Below, in pieces: positions 47,866 to 64,000 of a stretch of DNA of 64,000 nucleotides; the stretch's first letter is position 1; each line of letters starts with the position of its first letter. Under the pieces are notes generated by a model. It was not told the DNA's origin. It did not search any database and worked only from the letters and a program-made list of their open reading frames with translations. The position numbers and the translations under genes are program-made. This stretch comes from Flammulina velutipes. Lineage: Eukaryota; Basidiomycota; Agaricomycetes; Agaricales; Physalacriaceae. The stretch spans positions 744,001-808,000 of the forward strand of contig CM022372.1 in the NCBI GenBank assembly GCA_011800155.1, in the 5' to 3' direction.

Positions 47866-47891
47866 ACATCAGCAAATTCACAAATGTCTAA
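47866..47891 (+). repeat. Left terminal inverted repeat
   Basis: 26 bases beginning ACATCAGCAA and ending GTCTAA. It matches the right end at 24 of 26 positions, with differences at positions 11 and 14. Confidence 0.75.
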
Positions 47892-48381
47892 GGAGGTATA
47901 TCGTGGTCTAAAGGGGTCTAAAGTGGTCTAATGGCTCTAAAAGGTATAATGGGTATGGTGCCTACGGTTTAGACCGATTTTAGACTGCCATTTAGACCGA
48001 TATTATGCCATAATATACTTCCTGTTATACATTGAGTTCTTTATGATGTTAACTAAATCAGAGTATTCTGAAGTGATGGTCCCTCATTTACAGTGATGAA
48101 GGAAGGACTGTAGGCAGAAAAGTTAGTCGAACGATGTGGCGCCACCGGGATCATTTCCTGACTCAGCTATTTGTAATTGTTGATGTACGTTGGACTTGCG
48201 AGTTTTTCATTTCTTTCCTTCCCTCTTCCATCTGCTCTGCGCCTCTGTTACTCCCACGTTCCCGAGTCTTTAGGCTGACCCTCCAACGAACGTCTCTGTT
48301 CTATCTGTGGCACCAACACTAGGACAATACGATCCAATTTAGCTGATGACTGGATGCGACTTGTGACGACTGTCAAGGACT

Positions 48382-48500
48382 GGGCGATACAATCTGACAC
48401 CCGGAACATACAACACGACACGGCAACTAGGCGATATGACACGATGACTTGGACGATACGAAACCATGGGCGATACAGCACGACGACTCGACGATCCGAC
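48382..48500 (+). repeat. Degenerate GCGATAC-type repeats inside the element
   Basis: Six or so imperfect units of the form (G/A)CGATAC/T followed by A/C-rich sequence occur in 119 bases (GCGATACAA, GCGATATGA, ACGATGACT, ACGATACGA, GCGATACAG, ACGATCCGA). Spacing is about 15-30 bases. Confidence 0.45.
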
Positions 48501-49211
48501 CCTTCAATTGCCCGCACGACACCAGCCCATTCTACCACCAGGATGCGCTCTTAGATATAAAACTTCAATGTTTCATGCAGGTTGCTTGTGATACGGTATG
48601 TGGCCTTCTTACCTCCTACCTATCATTTACTCTCTCCTAGATATTCATCGTGTCGCACGCTTTTGTCATCAACATCGAGCGCGGAAATGGCTCCTACTCG
48701 TCATGGATCATCTAGATTTTCCGCCAGTGCCCGAACGACAAGATGGGCACAACAATTCATTAGCGACTTGCCGAGGACAGCAACCAGCAGAACTCGCGTC
48801 CAGCGAGTGTTGCCTCCATGTAACATCACCGCCGGCGTAAGGAAAATTTGTCCACATTTTGCAGTCCAATCTAACTCTGACCCATAGTAGCACGCAGTCG
48901 ACAACTTGAGGCGATAAGCGGTGGGAGAAGAACTGTTGTAGTTGCTAGCTGTCTTGTCTAGCTGTTATATTACAGTCTGAATATACATGATTTATCCTCG
49001 TCTAAAACGGTCTAATAATGTATAAAACCACGCCTCTCGAACGTGTCTAACCGGTGAATATGACGGGTCTAACGATGGTATATGATGGTCTAATCACGCT
49101 ATAATTTTAGACCAGCGAAGTGTAAAATTATCGGGGTCTAGTGTAAGATTAGACGGGGGAAAATGGTCTAAAATGGTCTAAATGGTATAATATTAGACCG
49201 TTTTAGACCGT

Positions 49212-49237
49212 TTAGACATTTGTTAACTTGCTGATGT
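49212..49237 (-). repeat. Right terminal inverted repeat
   Basis: The reverse complement of these 26 bases begins ACATCAGCAA and ends GTCTAA, pairing with the left end at 47866-47891. Confidence 0.75.
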
Positions 49238-49661
49238 TATTCCAGAATTGCTCCACCTTTTAGATGAGACGAGTCAGCTTCCATGCCAGCAGGTTTTCAC
49301 GATGCCACATTTTATGGGACTTGCCGAATCAACCATGTTCATATCATTCTTTCAGAATTCAAACGTCCTGTTGGTTTGAGTTGACATGATTCAACGTTGA
49401 AAGTTGGAATATGATTATGTAAGAGCATGATGCCAACTTACAAGATTGAAGAATGGCGATCGTATACTGAGAATTCGATACCACTGGTACGAAATCAATC
49501 CGACTGGGAAAGTCTTGCACTACGAAGCCTTTTGCTGGTGGTACATATGAAATGTGGATTCGAATGCCTATCAAACCCGTTCCGATGGACAGACCTGCAA
49601 AGGTCGAATAAAAATTAGATAGAATAGCTATACTTTTCAAGTAGCAACAGGGGCGCTCTGG

Positions 49662-51903
49662 TCATGCATCCGTGATACACCCCATACTCGCGTCCTCCAC
49701 GTTCTTAATATACTTGAACAGCGTACCCTGCGTCACCTTGAGTGGCGGTGGCACCCATCCCTTCCTCCTCTGCTCCATCACCTCCTCCGTCACATGCAGC
49801 TCAATCGAATTCTTCACCGCATCAACAGAAATCACATCGCCATCCTCCACAAACGCAATGGGCCCACCGACTTGCGCCTCGGGAACGACGTGCCCGATGC
49901 AGAACCCATGAGAACTCCGGAATGTCTCAATACGATGTCATGCGGAGGAGCTAAGCTGACTCACCCGCCACTGAACCGTCCATCGGTCAAACACGCCACA
50001 TCGAGACCCAGACCCGCGCCCATGATCAGACTTGTGGGTTTGAGCATCTCCGGCATACCTTTCGAAGACAATCAACGTCGTGGGAGACAGAGAAGAACGG
50101 AAAGACTCACCTGGTCCACCCTTGGGACCTAGATAGCGCAGGATGACGACGGTCTTCTCTCCCTTCTTGATCGATCCAGTCTCGACGGCCTTGACCATGT
50201 CAGCTTCCGAGTTGAAAACTCGCGCTTTGCCGGTAAATCCAAGCCCTTCTTTCCCAGTAATCTTCGCCACCGCGCCACCAGGTGCCAGGTTTCCCTTCAG
50301 TATGCGCAAATGGCCGGTGGCTTTGATAGGCTGTTCGAGAGGCCTGATAACGTCTTGGCTGGACATGCTCAGCTCGCCGTATTTGTGCACCCAGCGATCC
50401 AAGTTCTCTCCGAGGGTGTTTCCTGTGACGGTCATGATATTACCGTCAATCAATTTGTTCACCAGTAGGTAGTGTAAGATTTCTATGACTGGTGTCAAGG
50501 GCGGAAGCAATGATAGAAGGAGTTCTTACTGGGTATACCACCCAACTTGTAGACGTCCTCCATAACATACTTGCCGCTAGGCTTGATATCTGCGATGAAG
50601 GGTGTACGGTCGGAGACATTCTGGAAGTCATCGATGGTAAGTTTGATTCCTACGGAGTGTGCGATGGCGATGAGATGTAGCACGGCATTGGTCGAACCAC
50701 CAAGAATCATGGTGAGGACCTGCAGGGCGCGTCAGAAAAAGGTCGATACTTTGGGAATGCTCCATACCATCGCGTTTTCGAAGGCAGCGCGTGTCATAAT
50801 GTCCCGCGGAAGTATGTTCTTTGAGATAAGATTATACATCACAGGTCCGACGGAAGCACATTCGTCGAGTTTTTCTTGCGATTGGGCTGGGAACGAGGAC
50901 GAGCCAGGGAGTGACATGCCCATTGCTTCCGCCGCACTGGCCATGGTATTGGCGGTGTACATCTGTAGAAAAGGATTAACGGAAGAAGAGACGTTGTACA
51001 GGATAGCTTACTCCTCCACAAGCACCTGGTCCAGGACACGCGTGTCGAACGGTATTATAACGTGTCTTCTCGGCTGATTCTGTCCGTCCATCTTGCAAAT
51101 ACTGTCCATACGATTGGAATGCAGAAACGATATCCAATTGAGGAGCGCCTTCGCATGATCCTGCACGAATTGTCCCGCCGTAGAGCATGATGCCAGGCCG
51201 GTTGAGGCGCCCCACTAAACATTGTTATGGTTATGAAAAATACGACCTGGCCTAAAAGAGACACTAACAGGCCATCAAAACACCTGGCATGTTCTTGTCG
51301 CAGCCGGGAATGGTGACCATCGCATCGAGATGGTGCCCGCCAGCCGCGGTCTCAACCTGGTCCGCGATGAGATCGCGTGACTGGAGCGAGTAAGACATTC
51401 CAGCGGTGCCCATGCTAATCCCATCACTAACGCCGACAGTCCCGAACTGGTAGCCAATAAGACCGGCGTCTGTCAGTGACTTTTTTACCATCTGTCCAAG
51501 CCCGAGGATGTGGCGATTGCATCTGCGAAAATATGAGAAGGAAAAAGTACGAGCAAGACGCGTTCGTACGGATTGCCTTCGTACCTATCAGAGGCCAGGA
51601 ATTAGTGACCGTATTTAATACACTGCGCGCGCGACGTACCACACACTGGCCACACCAACCATAGCCTTGTTAAAGTCCTCGTCAGTCGTAATACCGTCCG
51701 TCGCGTACAGCATAGCCTGGCACAGACAAAATTGTTATTATGAGTCAAAATTTCAGAATGTGTCAAACCTGGCTGGCGCCTTGGTCCTTTGGCTGCGTCA
51801 CCAGACGACTATAGCGGTTCATTACGGGCTGTTCGCGACATGTTGACGCGGTGAAAAACGTTCGGCATCGCGTCGGACGACGAGCAGATGGTCGGAGCAG
51901 CAT
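49662..51903 (-). CDS. ILV3: Dihydroxy-acid dehydratase, mitochondrial (Ilv3)
   Basis: This Fe-S enzyme carries out the third common step of valine, leucine and isoleucine synthesis in mitochondria. The start at 51903 gives [17 protein letters not shown], an arginine-rich targeting sequence. After it come [20 protein letters not shown] and [20 protein letters not shown]. The cluster cysteines are visible in [20 protein letters not shown] and [18 protein letters not shown]. Further conserved blocks are [15 protein letters not shown] [76 protein letters not shown] and [21 protein letters not shown]. The C-terminus ends [10 protein letters not shown] at 49662. About ten introns of 45-60 bases. 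Length is about 600 residues, as in yeast Ilv3. All catalytic motifs appear intact. Confidence 0.95.
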
Positions 51904-52769: not shown

Positions 52770-54254
52770 ATGAACAGACAACCCTACGACGACGACGATG
52801 AACCTCGGAGGAGCTCCTTACCGCAAAGCCTTCGGCCACTCCTTCTCAACACCGCGCGCGACAGCTCAACCAGGACGACGATACCGACAGCGGAGGACGA
52901 TGAAGATGTCCGGGAGGCTGATCTCCAACCCTCGCCAATTCCATCACCATCCGTTTACGGTCACATTCCTTCGTTGACTACGTCAATGTATCACCACGAA
53001 AGACGACGCGGCTTGCTGCCTTACGCCACTTACGATACACCTGCGCCACTTCTACCAGAGCTGGACCCGCCTTCTCAAAGTCGACACGGCGGCGCGGGAC
53101 CTTCTTCCATTTACCATGGTCATGTAGCCGCGGAATACCATCCAAGAGCTCATCCCTATTATCCGCCCTCTGAGCCTGCATACGACTGGCAAGAAGGTGA
53201 GGCGGGCTCGTCCTCGACGCCATACACGCCCCACTACGATCCAAGAGGCGCCAGACTCGCCCGTCCCGGACATGTCCCTCCGGGCCTCTCTCGCTCGGCC
53301 TACTCCTACGACGACACCCCGCTGCCCGCGCACAGAAGAGAGACGGTACCATATCCCCAGCAGAATTACCGTGCGTCTCCTATATCTTTTTTGCCTTCTT
53401 TCAGGGACTTACGCCACACTGATAATAGACGCATCCTATAGTGGTCGGCACGACCAACCGTATCCGTCCTCCTCCCTTCCCCCCATCTCCGCTCCAGAAA
53501 GGACGAGTGGGTACTACAGCGACCAGCCACGTTTAATGCAGAGAGACGAGCAGATTGAATACGCCAGACTTCCGTCTATAGTTCCCCCAAGCGTGCGCTC
53601 TTGGTCAACACAAGAGGTCGATCAGTGGGCAGTAGACGAGCGCATGCCGTCTTCGCCTGACGACGACAGAGACGACGACGAGTACAAACCCTCGGGAGCG
53701 TCAAATAGACGAAGGCGTGCCGCCCCTGCGTCAGATCAAAACCCGAAGCCAGCGAAGATCCAAAAAGTGGCGATAGCGTGCAATTTCTGTCGAGGTAAGT
53801 CGAATCACGTTCAGAACAAGAACCCCCTTGCTGAACATCTTCACAAGGTCGAAAACTCAAATGCGACGGCGCGAGACCGGCGTGTTTCAATTGCAGAGGG
53901 CGTCCGAACCAAGATGTGTGCGTCTACGCGACGGAACAGAAACGTAGAGGAAAGGGTAAGGAACCTAAACGGAGGGTAGGGTCAGCTCAGAGAGGGAGAG
54001 GACAGAGGGGGTCAGAGTCGTTACCGCGCAGCAGCGTGTCGATGGACGTTGAATCGCGCCCATTGGAGCCTCTTTTACGACTGGCTCCGACGACAATGTC
54101 GCCCTCGGAGCCATCCTCACCTCCGTCACACAGGCAGCCATCATCTTCGCGGTACCTTGATAATGATTCGCCACGCGGACGTTCGGCCCATCGGAATACA
54201 AGAGCGATTCCGTCTCCGCCAGACAAGGACAAGTCTCCGAAGAGAGAGTACTAA
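52770..54254 (+). CDS. Zn2Cys6 transcription-factor-type protein
   Basis: The start gives MNRQPYDDDDEPRRSSLPQS. A 58-base intron near 53371-53428 joins QQNYH to ASYSGRHDQPYP. A phase-1 intron at 53795-53847 splits the DNA-binding cluster. After splicing, the cluster is ACNFCRGRKLKCDGARPACF, with NCRGRPNQDVCVY. All six zinc-binding cysteines are present in the order CxxC, C, C, CxxC-type spacing. A basic region follows (EQKRRGKGKEPKRRVG) with a serine/proline tail ending DKSPKREY. Total is about 450 residues. The cluster lies in the second half, not at the N-terminus as is common in ascomycete members, and no fungal-specific TF middle-homology domain is seen. The cluster sequence and its intron position match the two clusters of the next gene, so these share origin. 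Confidence 0.82.
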
Positions 54255-54742: not shown

Positions 54743-57536
54743 ATGATGCCTGGACGACACGACGGCGACGGCGACCGAGCGCCCAACTACAACATTGCGT
54801 TCACCAAGCGCGGCAACGGGCACGGCGGCAGCAGCCACAGTCATTTAGTCGGATCTGAGCTCAGTGTTTCCGGTACGCGGTCTTTGTGTCTTCCCACCAT
54901 ATCACACAGCGAGCTGAATGCCTTGCGCACGAGCAGACAATGCGCTATCAGAGTTTACGGTGCTCGTCGCTGGGTGCCGCGGAGGTGAGATGCATTTACC
55001 CCGCTTTATTGTCTGCGCCCAGCTGAACGCTTCGGATCAGGCAAAACGTCGTTCCTCCGCCTCCTGCTCGACACCAGCAACGTATCGCCCAACGTGCCAC
55101 CCGACGACATCGTATCCGTCGCCAAATTCGTTCAGGGGTGCAGCAGCCATACTACGCATATACGCACGGCCTCTATCGACGTGGACATCGATTTGGACGG
55201 GCCTGGCAGCTACCAGCGGCTCGGATTGAATCTCATAGATACGCCTGCGCTGGACTATCAGGACGAGCGGGCAGCGGAGAGGGTCGTTTCCGACATTATG
55301 CATCTAGTCGAGGCGCGCTTCGTCGACACCATGGAGGATGTAAGCTCACTATTTCTTCGCGTCGTTGGCACTCTGACGGACCCCCGCATGCAGCCCAGAA
55401 AGATACACGGCGCTGGAGGATTCGTTCACTTGTGAGTTCCGCAGCCCCGCCTCTTCCGCTTTCGTGCGCCGACGCCACATCCCGATTAGATGTCTTTATT
55501 TTCTTGACCCGGACCAGATCGCCCCGCCTCGCATTCCAGCTTCGGCTGCACCGACTCTCGCTCGGGTCCGGGGCAACAGCTTCTCCCAGTCCGCTCAGGA
55601 GCTGGATCCATCATCGCCTCATAATCCGCTATTCAATCGTCCGACCCTGCCTCTAGGCGATGTCAACGCCATCCGAAGACTGTCCACAAAGTGTAACGTT
55701 CTCCCTGTTATCGCAAAAGCCGACACCCTTTCCAACGACAGGCTCGCCGCAGTCAAGATTGCTGTCCGTCGTGACCTCGCCGAGGGTGGCATAGGATTCG
55801 GTATATTCGACGACCCTGTACACCGTAGCCAGGCAGAGGTCTTGCTCAAGAATGGAGACTACCGAAACGGGTCGTCCTCAGCCGTCAATTCTCCTCCCAC
55901 TTCTCCCGTCTCCCCCGCTCCCAGGTTGCCATATGCCCTCATATCACCCGACGCGTACTCTCACAGCGACGGCGTTCTCAGGTCAACCCCTTCACGGCAG
56001 CAACTCATAAATCAATACACTCCTTTGTATTCGTCCCCACCTTCCAAACTCGTCCCCGGCGTGTACACTCGTTCATTCCGCTGGGGTGTCCTGGATGTCC
56101 TAGATCCGGGCCACTGCGACTTTCTGCCCCTCCGAAATGCTATATTCCATCACATGAATGTACGAACCGTCTTGGTGCCTTCATCTGGTTCCATGCTGAT
56201 TCTTCTGTCTAGACTTTGCAAACATATACAAGGGACTATTTGTTCACCAGGTTCCAACAGGAATATACTGAGCGTCTCCCACCACGCCCGAGCTTATCTT
56301 CCGTCCATCTACCAGGTCCTCCTCCCGGCGCTTTATCCACTCGCCCGGTCCTCGCTATAGATACGGCCGGCCCTCACTCTACAATCAACCGAAACCAATC
56401 AGTTCCTGTCTCGAGAGAGATGTCCGCGGGACGAGACTTGCATTCCGTGTCCATAGGCAGACCACTGTCAGATATTTCTGTCAGTGCATCCACTAAAGGC
56501 CTTCCCAGTATGTTATCTTCCACCCTATCCAGAGATTCCCCTGATCAAGCTAAAGAAGCGAAGCAACGGGCAAAAAAGATCCCCGTTGCGTGCAACTTCT
56601 GTCGATGTACGTCTTCCCTTATTTTGAGGGGACCTTACGAAATGAATACTCACGTTTGTTATTCCTTCTTAGCCCGAAAACTCAAATGTGATGGTGGCCG
56701 TCCGGCGTGCAGCCAATGCGTGAAACGGCAGAACGCATGTGATTATATGGCGCAGAGCAAGCGAAGAGGAGGTTTGCGAACGCAGAGTGATAGTGACAGT
56801 GGGGAGGACGACCAGAACGAGACTACGCCCATCTCGGAGGCACCGTCGCATTCTCACTCGTACCACCATCCACGGCGTGCGTCGAATGCAGGACGAATGA
56901 CGCCAATGCCGATAAACCTTTCTGCTGGCGAGGCATCGACCTCCTCTAGCCATTCGCGCTCGCTCTTCCGTGATAACGAATTACCACACATCGCTACGCT
57001 CGCACTACCTGAGCGAGCGCCCCCCACTCCACTTCCCATGTCCGCTCCCCCTCTTCCCCCATTACGTTCACCCGAACAACCTACACGAAAACGTGCGCTG
57101 ACAGCACCAGGTGGCAAGAATGGCCGCCACCCATCCACCTCTGGGCCCAAAGTAGTGGCGTGCAACTTCTGTCGAGGTATGCACTCCGTCTTACCATCCC
57201 CAACATCACATCACTGATAGTTCCTTCCATTCAGCGCGGAAAACAAAATGCGATGGTGCGCATCCGGCGTGTTCGAGCTGTGTGCGACGGAGTTTGGCGT
57301 GCAACTATGTGAATGATCGGGACAACAACAACAATGGGGGAGATTCTGGGGGGAAGAAGTCGGGCAAGCGGACGTCTACTTCTGCGCGGCCGTCACCGCC
57401 TACCCCGCCGTCTTCGCAGATGGCTAGTGCTGGGGAGGATAGAGATGATGATAGGTATTTGGATGAGTATGAGATGAAAAGGGGGGTCGAACACGCTGAT
57501 ATGCGACCTTCGAAGCGGATGAGGATGGATAGGTGA
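54743..57536 (+). CDS. Septin-type GTPase fused to two Zn2Cys6 DNA-binding clusters
   Basis: Eight exons (54743-54872, 54937-54984, 55041-55339, 55394-55431, 55490-56159, 56213-56606, 56673-57176, 57235-57536) keep one frame and give 794 residues. The septin-type G domain covers about residues 45-400. Its P-loop is LVAGCRGGKTSFLRLLLDTS, G3 is NLIDTPALDYQDE (Ala where septins have Gly), and VHLCLYFLDPDQI follows. G4 is VLPVIAKADTLSNDRLAAVK, followed by a disordered insert. The septin C-terminal block is RSFRWGVLDVLDPGHCDFLP with TRDYLFTRFQQEYTERL. Without a stop the frame continues through a serine/proline linker into cluster 1 (VACNFCRSRKLKCDGGRPAC) and cluster 2 (VACNFCRARKTKCDGAHPAC). The tail carries Lys/Arg-rich NLS-like ends (KRMRMDR). 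Septins polymerise at the cortex, while Zn2Cys6 proteins bind DNA in the nucleus. The combined role is unknown. Confidence 0.82.
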
Positions 57537-58517: not shown

Positions 58518-60663
58518 ATGTTTTCTTTCCGGCGCAAACCCAGCAAACAACCAGAGTCGCCTCAAATTCGCTCGCGCCCCTCCCTCCCCGAGCTTAACAG
58601 TCAAGGCATCCCATGGCCCGAGAATTTGGTGGACTTGGAGAGTATACGGGACTCTGTGGATCCCGACACACCGACGACGACGTCTCCCAAAGGTGCGGCC
58701 AAAACTTCTTTCGGGACGGACCCCCAAAGCCCTATACCATTCCACAAACCATTTCGGCCTGCAGGTGCAGGAACCCCTAGCAGTATCTCGGCCATGTTCA
58801 TGACGAGCCCCCCGTCTGCCTTTGACAACTGGAAGAATGCGCCACCGCCCTCGAGCAGCAAGTACAGCCAGCGCCGGGCAAGGCTCCCTCCAACCTTCAA
58901 CCTGATGGTGCGTCGGCGTCGATCCCCCACTGTGTGATTGGCGGTTTTAAATTTTCCTTTTAGGTCGTTGGCGGACAGGGAACTGGGAAGACGTCGCTTC
59001 TTCGGTTGCTTCTGGAAACAGCGGACATCTCGCCTGCTGCCACCCCCGACCAACGCGCGGCTCTAGCCCAGTTTCTCAAGGGGTCCCCAAAGTCGACTCA
59101 GGCGATCAACACCGCGAGCGTGGAGATATGCGAATCCCGGTTCGACCGTGTTATGTTTTCTGTGATTGACACGCCTGGCTTGGATTTTATCGAAGGCAGA
59201 GAACTCAAGCTAGAGCGCCAAGTGACGAGCATCCTGCGCTATGTGGACGCAAAGTACGCTGATACTATGAGCGAGGTACGTGACTGTTTTTACTGCGGGG
59301 ATCATCCACTGAATATCTTATGTAGGAATCTAAAGTCGTTAGGAAAAGTAAAGGAGACCAACATATCCATTTGTTCGTGCTTGCAGTGGCCTTTTGCGTT
59401 ATGATACTGACGAATGCATAAAGGTGTATCTACTTGATTGACCCATCGTCTATCATGTCCGCTGCCCAACGTCGAGTGCAATCGACTCTTCCGTCGAGGA
59501 CACGATCCGAGGCTACCGTCTCCAACCGCAATCCGCCTGACCTCGTCGCGGACACGTCGTCCGTCGACTCTGACGAAGATGAGGCAGAAGCGCCTCTAAC
59601 GATGTCTCCCGCTGAACTCCGCGTCATTCGCAGGCTTTCTGCTCGCACCAACATCCTCCCCGTCATCGCGCGCGCCGACTCCCTCACGGACGACAACCTG
59701 GCCGCTGTAAAGCAGGCAGTGAACATCGGCCTGGCAGAGGCATCCTTGGACTTTGGTGTGTTCTCCCCGCCAAAGGAAAGGGAAGAAGCGCCTTCGTCTC
59801 GACGAAGGAAGCGCGTACAGAGCCACGGGGAGCCTCATGTCAATGGGAACGGGAACGGGATTTCAAACGGGAATGGACATGTCCCCGAGGAAGAAGAACC
59901 CAAAGATGAAGGCGCGGATGTCGAAGAAGAGGAAGAGGAAGAGGAAGAACGCCAGTCTCGGCCGGTCATCAAGCTTCGTCCTTCCCGCCACGGCAGCGGC
60001 CGCAACCTCTCGAGATCCCGCTCTCGTCGTGATCTCTCCGTAGCAGCCGATGATGACAGACGACCCGTCACTCCCGACATGGCAGACAGAGACAGTGTTG
60101 CGAATGTCCGCTTCTCCGCGCACGTCGTGGCCAAAACAGACTTGACGTCCCTCATGCCTTTCGCAATCATTGCGCCCCAGCCGGGGAGGTTCACCAGACA
60201 CAAGGCGTCCGACCGTGATGCGCTTAGCACTGCCCCATCGTCGCCTGTTCCACATTCCAATTCTGAAGACGGGCACGCCCCATCCCCCGTCACGCTCAAA
60301 ACACCTGCGTCGATCCACAGCTCTCACAGGCAGCTCAGCTTCCTCCAAGGCCCGCCTGAAGATCTCAAAGGTGTCTTCATCAGGAAATACCGCTGGGGGA
60401 CTGTCGACGTCCTAGATCCCGACCACTGTGACTTTGCCGCTCTGCGAACGGCTGTGTTGTCTACTCATTTGAAGGTGCGTTTTTTCTTTTTTCATCACAC
60501 ATGACTGAAGGTTCAACCGTTCGCGTAGGTTTTGAAAACCCATACTAAGGAAGTGTTGTATGAGAAGTATCGAACGGAGAAGCTCCTTGCTCGCCGCGCC
60601 ACCCGCCAAATTACGGAAGACGAGCGCGCGAAGATAATGGAGGGTGCGTTGAATGAGTCGTGA
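58518..60663 (+). CDS. Septin-like GTPase with long disordered N-terminus and acidic insert
   Basis: Five exons (58518-58907, 58964-59275, 59326-59372, 59424-60474, 60529-60663) give 644 residues. The N-terminal 125 residues are disordered (MFSFRRKPSKQPESPQIRS). The G domain starts at FNLMVVGGQGTGKTSLLRLL (P-loop). G3 is VIDTPGLDFIEGRELK, then HIHLCIYLIDPSS. G4 is ILPVIARADSLTDDNLAAVK, with ARAD instead of the usual AKAD. A roughly 200-residue insert follows with an Asn/Gly repeat (NGNGNGISNGNGH) and an acidic run (DVEEEEEEEEE). The septin C-terminal block reads GVFIRKYRWGTVDVLDPDHC with LKTHTKEVLYEKYRTEKLLA. There is no long coiled-coil tail. Three introns coincide with those of the upstream fusion gene. 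It is non-canonical, so filament assembly cannot be assumed. Confidence 0.86.
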
Positions 60664-63084: not shown

Positions 63085-64000
63085 ATGACTGAGTCGCTCC
63101 CATTCACGCCACTTTTCATCGATGGAAAACAAGTTCCTTCCAGCGCAGGCTCGACTTTCCAAATCTACAATCCTTTCACAGAATCTGTCGTCGGAACATG
63201 CGCCACTGCCACGTCAGACGACTGTACTGCTGCTCTACAAAGTGCAGCGAGAGCGTTTCCAGACTGGGAAGCCACTCCTCTCGCCAAACGGCAAGAAATT
63301 GTCTCTCGTGCGGCTGCCATCTTCGAGGAAGAGGCAACGAAAAGTAGGATACTGGACGCCGGACGAGCAGAAACAGCTGCAACGGACGCATGTATCAATG
63401 GGATGAACAAGGACATCGCACAATACATGAGGGCCAATGTTGAGTATTCTATGCTCATGGATCAAGTCGACTCGTCGCCTTCGACGCGTGTCCAAGGTGC
63501 AAAGGTGGAAGTTAGGCGGCGCGCCATGGGCGTTGTGTACGTACCCAGTAACAGATCGGAGTTACTTAAATTTACTAGTGCTTTCTAGCCTCGCCATCTC
63601 TCCGTGGAACGCACCAGTGTATCTCTCCATCCGCGCTATCACCGTCCCACTACTTTGTGGCAACACTGTGATCCTCAAAGCATCCGAATACACTCCCCGC
63701 TCGCAAGCCATCGTCGCCGAAGTATTTCACCAAGCAGGAATCCCCCCAGGTGTATTGAACTATATCTCAATGACTCGAGAGGCTTCCCCTTCTCTCACTG
63801 CCCAGCTGATAGCACATCCTGCCGTCCGCAAAATCAACTTCACTGGCAGCAAACGCGTCGGTACTATCATCGCGACCGAAGCCGCAAAGCACCTCAAACC
63901 GTGCGTCCTCGAGTTGGGCGGAAAGAGCCCAGCGGTGGTTCTCGCCGATGCGAATATAGCACTTGCTGCTCGAGCCATTGTGTTCGGCGCCTTCTCGCAC
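63085..64000 (+). CDS. Aldehyde dehydrogenase (partial, right edge)
   Basis: This NAD(P)-dependent aldehyde dehydrogenase oxidises aldehydes to acids. The start gives MTESLPFTPLFIDGKQVPSS. Family motifs are FQIYNPFTESVVGTC, ALQSAARAFPDWEATPLAKR, VEVRRRAMGVV, then a GTACGT intron of about 60 bases (63537-63589) joining to LAISPWNAPVYLSIRAITVP. Next come LLCGNTVILKASEYTPRSQA, PPGVLNYISM, VRKINFTGSKRVGTIIATEA and the catalytic-Glu motif CVLELGGKSPAVVLADANI. The catalytic cysteine lies beyond the window. SPWNAP, KASE and GGKSP are as expected. The sequence is most like the vanillin/salicylaldehyde dehydrogenase branch of fungal ALDHs, which take aromatic aldehydes. That preference is inferred. 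The gene runs off the right edge. Confidence 0.9.

Follow-up and report, generated by a model that had tools for sequence, protein, structure and literature searches.

Does a single gene of Flammulina velutipes join a septin-type domain to DNA-binding zinc clusters and, if so, what might the resulting protein do? The question is raised by positions 54743-57536 (+) of a 64,000-nucleotide stretch of the genome (assembly GCA_011800155.1, contig CM022372.1; C5:744001-808000 in our scan), which we refer to as the window. There, an earlier note made from the sequence had proposed a septin-type GTPase fused in frame to two Zn2Cys6 clusters. Septins are cortical scaffolds that build filaments at the cell edge. 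We find that this locus almost certainly encodes one fusion protein.

A Pfam scan of the predicted protein detected Septin in three stretches (E 7.5e-26) and Zn_clus in two (E 1e-18), each over its gathering cut-off, in a layout consisting of a septin-like G domain at about residues 44-405, a linker, and Zn2Cys6 clusters starting at residues 517 and 685; NCBIfam, a prokaryote library, gave no match for homologue P0007 or for P0001. The C-terminal block of the septin-like domain and the first half of cluster 1 lie together in exon 6 (56213-56606), whose borders are exactly those given in the earlier note and which contains no stop. A homologue search scored 7984 candidates, of which 207 reached E <= 0.001; counts out of 120 refer to the best 120 of these 207, and counts out of 109 refer to an alignment of the listed fusions of 700-880 residues, from which 11 of other length were excluded. 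Both Pfam families are present in 120 of 120 homologues among the matches listed, the closest being a protein of Mucidula mucida with 67% identity. A species name is given for 116 of the 120; these are mushroom-forming fungi of at least six orders, and we take all of them to be Agaricomycetes. Orders were looked up for six genera in which the fusion is present, namely Mucidula (Physalacriaceae, Agaricales), Jaapia (Jaapiales), Trametes (Polyporales), Russula (Russulales), Serpula (Boletales) and Athelia (Atheliales). The fusion architecture is conserved in the Agaricomycetes. No second copy of it was seen in the F. velutipes genome as scanned (38 Mb, 23 contigs).

Six intron-free open reading frames (ORFs) taken from the lgn and jgi sources reach from the C-terminal septin block through both clusters; two of these (P0007 and P0057) span the entire protein, and four (P0063, P0241, P0273 and P0286) begin internally, all on contigs of at most 5153 bases. 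Because P0243, a near relative of P0007 found on contigs of up to 21.5 kb, is interrupted by additional sequence at two points where P0007 reads straight through, once in the linker and once within cluster 1, we infer with considerable force that the six spliced ORFs derive from RNA. The earlier note had named two outcomes that would speak against a fusion, its absence from all relatives and the existence of separate septin and zinc-cluster transcripts; instead, every listed homologue carries both domains and the transcript-like ORFs cross the join. The linker is also conserved: a motif RPxLxI[D/E] is found in 113 of the 120 listed homologues, preceding a cluster in 113 of 113 and following the RxYRW block in 112. 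Scored with a codon table derived from the septin-like gene downstream, the linker reached -0.03 in the predicted frame, its other five frames giving -0.23 to -0.50, and its codons resemble those of the rest of the gene; the next intergenic stretch scored -0.42 to -0.51 in its three forward frames. Together, the transcript-like ORFs, the conservation of the linker and the coding score led us to reject an error in the gene model.

These findings leave very little room for the alternative that two adjacent genes have been misjoined, with one message, septin-like, terminating in the linker and another, for the zinc clusters, beginning close to the ATG at 56420. Weighing against a single protein are two annotations split across adjacent locus tags, P0121/P0248 (Termitomyces) and P0122/P0254 (Tricholoma furcatifolium), and further short named models restricted either to zinc clusters (P0255 and P0347) or to the septin part (P0123, P0124, P0140, P0144, P0157 and P0236). 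In addition, most entries in two further homologue searches made with length limits (the best 120 of 259 and the best 120 of 194) are unnamed one-domain ORFs, although length limits and introns would yield the same picture. However, the zinc halves P0248, P0254 and P0255 begin past cluster 1, so that cluster 1 is in neither half of a split pair, and a wrong split is therefore the simpler account. Moreover, the ATG at 56420 corresponds to Met460 of the fusion, and methionine occupies this position in just 11 of 109 aligned members. The gene models of the Pleurotus study were, furthermore, checked against RNA-seq reads, according to the available text of PMC7295025. Two unusual models may be mentioned here. 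P0347 (Suillus lakei, 244 aa) is an isolated zinc part whose second cluster is disrupted, and looks by eye as though it might be a decaying partial duplicate, and P0138 (jgi, 507 aa) runs in one open frame from the septin block through a linker of about 20 residues into the half-cluster VVACNFCRG, perhaps representing a lineage with a different join.

The gene consists of eight exons and seven GT-AG introns, as the earlier note had proposed, with an open frame throughout. Its coding length is 2370 bases (789 codons and a stop), 15 fewer than the 2385 previously reckoned, the doubtful spot having been the acceptor of exon 3. With the acceptor at 55041 the P-loop reads VAGCRG-GKTSF, whereas an acceptor at 55023 gives 2388 bases and six residues more. 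At the P-loop, relatives (the transcript-like P0007 and P0057 among them) have VAG[C/S]RGGKTSF, and because of this we regard 55041 as correct and dropped the acceptor used before. Exon 1 (54743-54872, 130 bases) encodes a variable, weakly conserved N-terminal tail. Exon 2 (54952-54984, 33 bases, phase 1 at both ends), which is conserved in relatives, contributes the beta-1 strand and the first part of the P-loop, EFTVLVAGCRG; exon 3 (55041-55339, 299 bases) supplies GKTSFLRLL and the G3 box DTPALD. Exon 4 (55394-55431) has 38 bases, and the adjacent intron positions and phases are common to the downstream gene. Exon 5 (55490-56159, 670 bases) carries the G4 box AKAD, a variable insert and the RSFRWG and HCDF blocks, and exon 6 (394 bases) includes, between the septin C-terminal block and cluster 1, the linker with its motif in the form RPVLAIDT. 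The remainder of cluster 1, a spacer with the motif NELPHIATL and the first half of cluster 2 are encoded by exon 7 (56673-57176, 504 bases), and the remainder of cluster 2, a Ser/Pro-rich tail and the basic C-terminal KRMRM before the stop by exon 8 (57235-57536, 302 bases). All exons lie on the + strand. The models P0032, P0060 and P0079 lack the 33-base P-loop exon and pass directly to GKTSF. The phase of this exon is identical at both ends and skipping it therefore keeps the frame, and the three models suggest a possible regulated isoform; alternatively, small exons are often overlooked by gene callers.

The N-terminal part of the fusion has the profile and the fold of a septin G domain, and the structure model predicts that fold with confidence. 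At the P-loop, the pattern AxxxxGK[ST] replaces GxxxxGK[ST]: the first position is Ala in 101 of the 109 aligned fusions, Thr in 1 and a gap in 7, and the lysine is present in 105. Of the 120 models, 99 match the P-loop pattern, and most of the other 21 seem by eye to have a truncated or garbled beginning; in P0082 and P0120 the residue ahead of the lysine is changed. The glycine of the G3 box DxxG is the gamma-phosphate sensor in septins and Ras-like GTPases. None of the 109 aligned fusions keeps this glycine (Ser stands there in 105, Ala in 3 and Thr in 1; the window protein has Ala), and because the DxxG box is thus lost we speak of a septin-like domain and not of a canonical septin. The Asp of G4 is retained in 109 of 109, the second G4 position being Arg in 90, Lys in 12 (as in AKAD of the window protein), Cys in 6 and Thr in 1. 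Three septin-wide interface residues can be recognized by an R/W/H spacing of W-4, W and W+10, which is also found in the SepA protein of this genome, presumably Cdc3-like. Located in the fusions by this spacing, the residues (R360, W364 and H374 in the Cdc3 numbering of PMC6323724) are retained in 109, 109 and 100 of 109 members, respectively. Mean identity to the window protein across the 109 members is 0.58 for the G domain up to G4, 0.64 for the C-terminal septin blocks and 0.33 for the linker.

Compared with ordinary septins (PF00735; Cdc3, Cdc10, Cdc11 and Cdc12 types), five of which in this genome are 27-31% identical to it, the fusion differs in the lost G3 glycine, in its attached zinc clusters and in having long inserts, one of which separates G4 from the RxxxW block. 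It also has no polybasic alpha-0 stretch, there being 4 Lys/Arg in the 49 residues ahead of the P-loop in the window protein (the one in which they were counted), and no long helix past the G domain: in a structure model of P0001, the C-terminal helix of the G domain (to residue 375) is followed by just two five-residue helical turns. Two ordinary septins of the genome (C3:2997889-2998947 and C2:1853655-1854801) have GASGTGRT P-loops and are 82% alike; we take both to be of Cdc11 type, and the genome therefore seems to hold two such copies.

Both zinc clusters have the spacing CX2CX6CX6CX2CX6C, which falls within the Zn2Cys6 pattern CX2CX6CX5-12CX2CX6-8C. By the strict pattern, 109 of the 120 homologues have two intact clusters, 1 has three and 10 have one. 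No part of the protein is better conserved than the clusters, whose mean identities to the window protein are 0.84 and 0.86 (109 members). Cluster 1 with its flanks matches clusters that have been solved on DNA, namely those of Cyp1/Hap1 (E 6e-09 to 2e-08), Gal4 (E 2e-06) and Put3 (E 4e-06), with which the fusion shares the six-cysteine spacing and a basic loop between the second and third cysteines. Unlike those regulators, the fusion has two clusters, places them C-terminally, and has a septin-like domain in place of the regulatory domain. A NELPHIATL-like motif occurs in 96 of 120 homologues and was confirmed between two intact clusters in 87 of 120, and a loosely defined basic motif lies within the final 60 residues in 115 of 120.

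The fusion gene stands between two genes that resemble its parts. Upstream, at 52770-54254 (+), is a lone Zn2Cys6 gene (about 454 aa, Zn_clus E 1.8e-07) whose first donor site is uncertain; downstream, at 58518-60663 (+), is a lone septin-like gene of five exons (644 aa, Septin E 1.6e-48). The downstream protein has the P-loop GGQGTGKT, the G3 box DTPG and the G4 box ARAD, and GxxxxGKT and DTPG are kept in both downstream-type proteins examined, those of the window and of P0008. Three intron positions and phases are common to the fusion and the downstream gene (before P155, inside L167 and before T391, in fusion numbering). A tree was built over 238 columns from 12 sequences, comprising fusions, two downstream-type proteins and the five ordinary septins of the genome (stitched by eye for use as an outgroup only). 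In it, the fusion and the downstream gene form one clade with support of 100, apart from the ordinary septins; the clade is divergent and sits on a long branch. By these sequence comparisons, the downstream gene is a tandem paralogue of the septin-like part of the fusion. The neighbourhood is visible in 5 of the 120 homologues, run-on models that agree with the order zinc gene, fusion, septin-like gene: P0015, P0017 and P0021 have an upstream zinc cluster before the fusion, P0104 has, as judged by eye, half of one, and P0008 extends into a protein that shares 57% identity with the downstream gene. This agreement suggests that the three-gene neighbourhood is old. The cluster of the upstream gene is interrupted by an intron whose position and phase match those of the introns in the two fusion clusters, an agreement that is consistent with duplication but no proof of it. 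As a mark unique to duplication the coincidence is weakened, since the DNA pattern was found at 7 places in the genome (3 at this locus) versus 5 in a reversed control; other zinc-cluster matches likewise begin at profile positions 8-10.

The earlier note had held that no described protein class combines these domains. At least 120 database proteins carry both Pfam labels, and one of this kind was recorded in 2020: PoZCP55 of Pleurotus ostreatus combines Septin Pfam matches with two zinc clusters C-terminal to them, as does the fusion, and forms a separate clade among the zinc-cluster proteins of that species, whose gene models were corrected against RNA-seq (PeerJ; PMC7295025). Likened by description and not by sequence, PoZCP55 is very probably an orthologue. 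It is one gene in a family survey, the available text of which offers no reading of its G domain, neighbours, spread or mechanism (PMC7295025). Within the literature searched, this was the sole paper to contain both Pfam accessions and the sole one to name PoZCP55. Among the titles and abstract openings listed, with subscription journals mostly outside the scope of the search, no other account of the architecture was found. The available text of PMC6323724 describes Group 5 fungal septins as being, with one exception, without strong coiled coils and as having low interface conservation, retaining D289, R360, W364 and H374 and showing no evidence of core septin binding; the fusion is likened to them by that description, the tree having covered fusions, two downstream-type proteins and the ordinary septins of this genome.

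What, then, might the fusion do? The explanation that best fits the whole, to which we assign a probability of roughly 0.55, is that it may be a nuclear DNA-binding protein with a septin-like dimerisation platform. The tandem clusters would make sequence-specific contact with DNA and, together with the basic motifs, they indicate that the protein probably binds DNA in the nucleus. The septin-like domain, with its nucleotide pocket and interface residues retained, could serve as a nucleotide-stabilised platform for dimerisation, a role to which we give even odds; it would stand in for the coiled coil or regulatory domain of other zinc-cluster regulators. We favour a platform over a cycling switch because the G3 glycine is lost, and infer from this loss that switching is weak or absent. 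The likeliest partners of the G domain would be the fusion itself and the adjacent septin-like protein with its intact G3 box. Several points weigh against this explanation. The Pfam scan of the window protein found no domain besides Septin and Zn_clus, and no fungal_trans; the zinc regions were predicted with low confidence, which is to be expected when zinc is left out of the model for short modules that it holds together; a missing G3 glycine alone is no proof of lost hydrolysis; and adjacency, common origin and retained residues, which are all that link the neighbour's product to the fusion, point to it as a partner only tentatively.

A true GTP switch, in which GTP loading alters assembly or DNA binding to give the GTP-regulated transcription factor that the earlier note had suggested, appears unlikely. 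The P-loop lysine, the G4 Asp and the confidently predicted fold would all suit such a switch; regulation by GTP is weakened by the replacement of the G3 glycine in every aligned fusion and of the first P-loop glycine by Ala in nearly all. We consider it more doubtful still that the protein is a working cortical septin whose clusters make protein or membrane contacts, or a dual-location reporter from cortex to nucleus. Although the fold and the R/W/H interface residues are retained, and some zinc clusters are without demonstrated DNA binding, this account sits poorly with the missing polybasic N-terminal helix of the window protein, the scarcity of helix past the G domain in the P0001 model, the long insert that separates G4 from the RxxxW block, and the clusters being the most conserved part. 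The earlier note had also offered a cortex-to-nucleus sensor and a DNA-tethered septin as readings; both stay conjectural, the analysis speaking directly neither for nor against them. A last possibility, that the septin-like domain is a degenerate relic and the clusters alone matter, would suit the long branch and the altered P-loop and G3 box, but is most improbable, as a freely decaying G domain would not be expected to keep 58% mean identity with the G4 Asp and the interface R and W invariant.

The window contains other features away from the fusion gene. Positions 47866-49237 have 26-base inverted repeats at their ends (92% complementary) and many GGTCTAAA-type repeats, resembling a small non-autonomous DNA transposon; exons at about 49660-51860 (-), adjoining the upstream zinc gene, resemble dihydroxy-acid dehydratase (Ilv3) by eye; and the start of an aldehyde dehydrogenase gene lies at 63085-64000 (+) (Aldedh E 4.7e-14 and 1.1e-37, in two pieces).

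The fusion is real, conserved and nearly unstudied, and what is surprising about it is that two such folds are paired, that every aligned fusion has lost the G3 glycine and that there is a tandem partner. It makes testable whether septin-type assembly acts on chromatin, and the adjacent paralogues are clear genetic partners. One speculative and rather unlikely extension of a septin-like platform on DNA is that the fusion and its G3-intact neighbour would assemble there as a pair through septin interfaces, with the nucleotide state of the partner gating oligomerisation. Oligomerisation would then set spacing and cooperativity at the target sites of the zinc clusters, and the adjoining lone zinc-cluster protein might compete for or share those sites. 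Were this so, septin assembly would serve as a transcription scaffold in mushroom-forming fungi.
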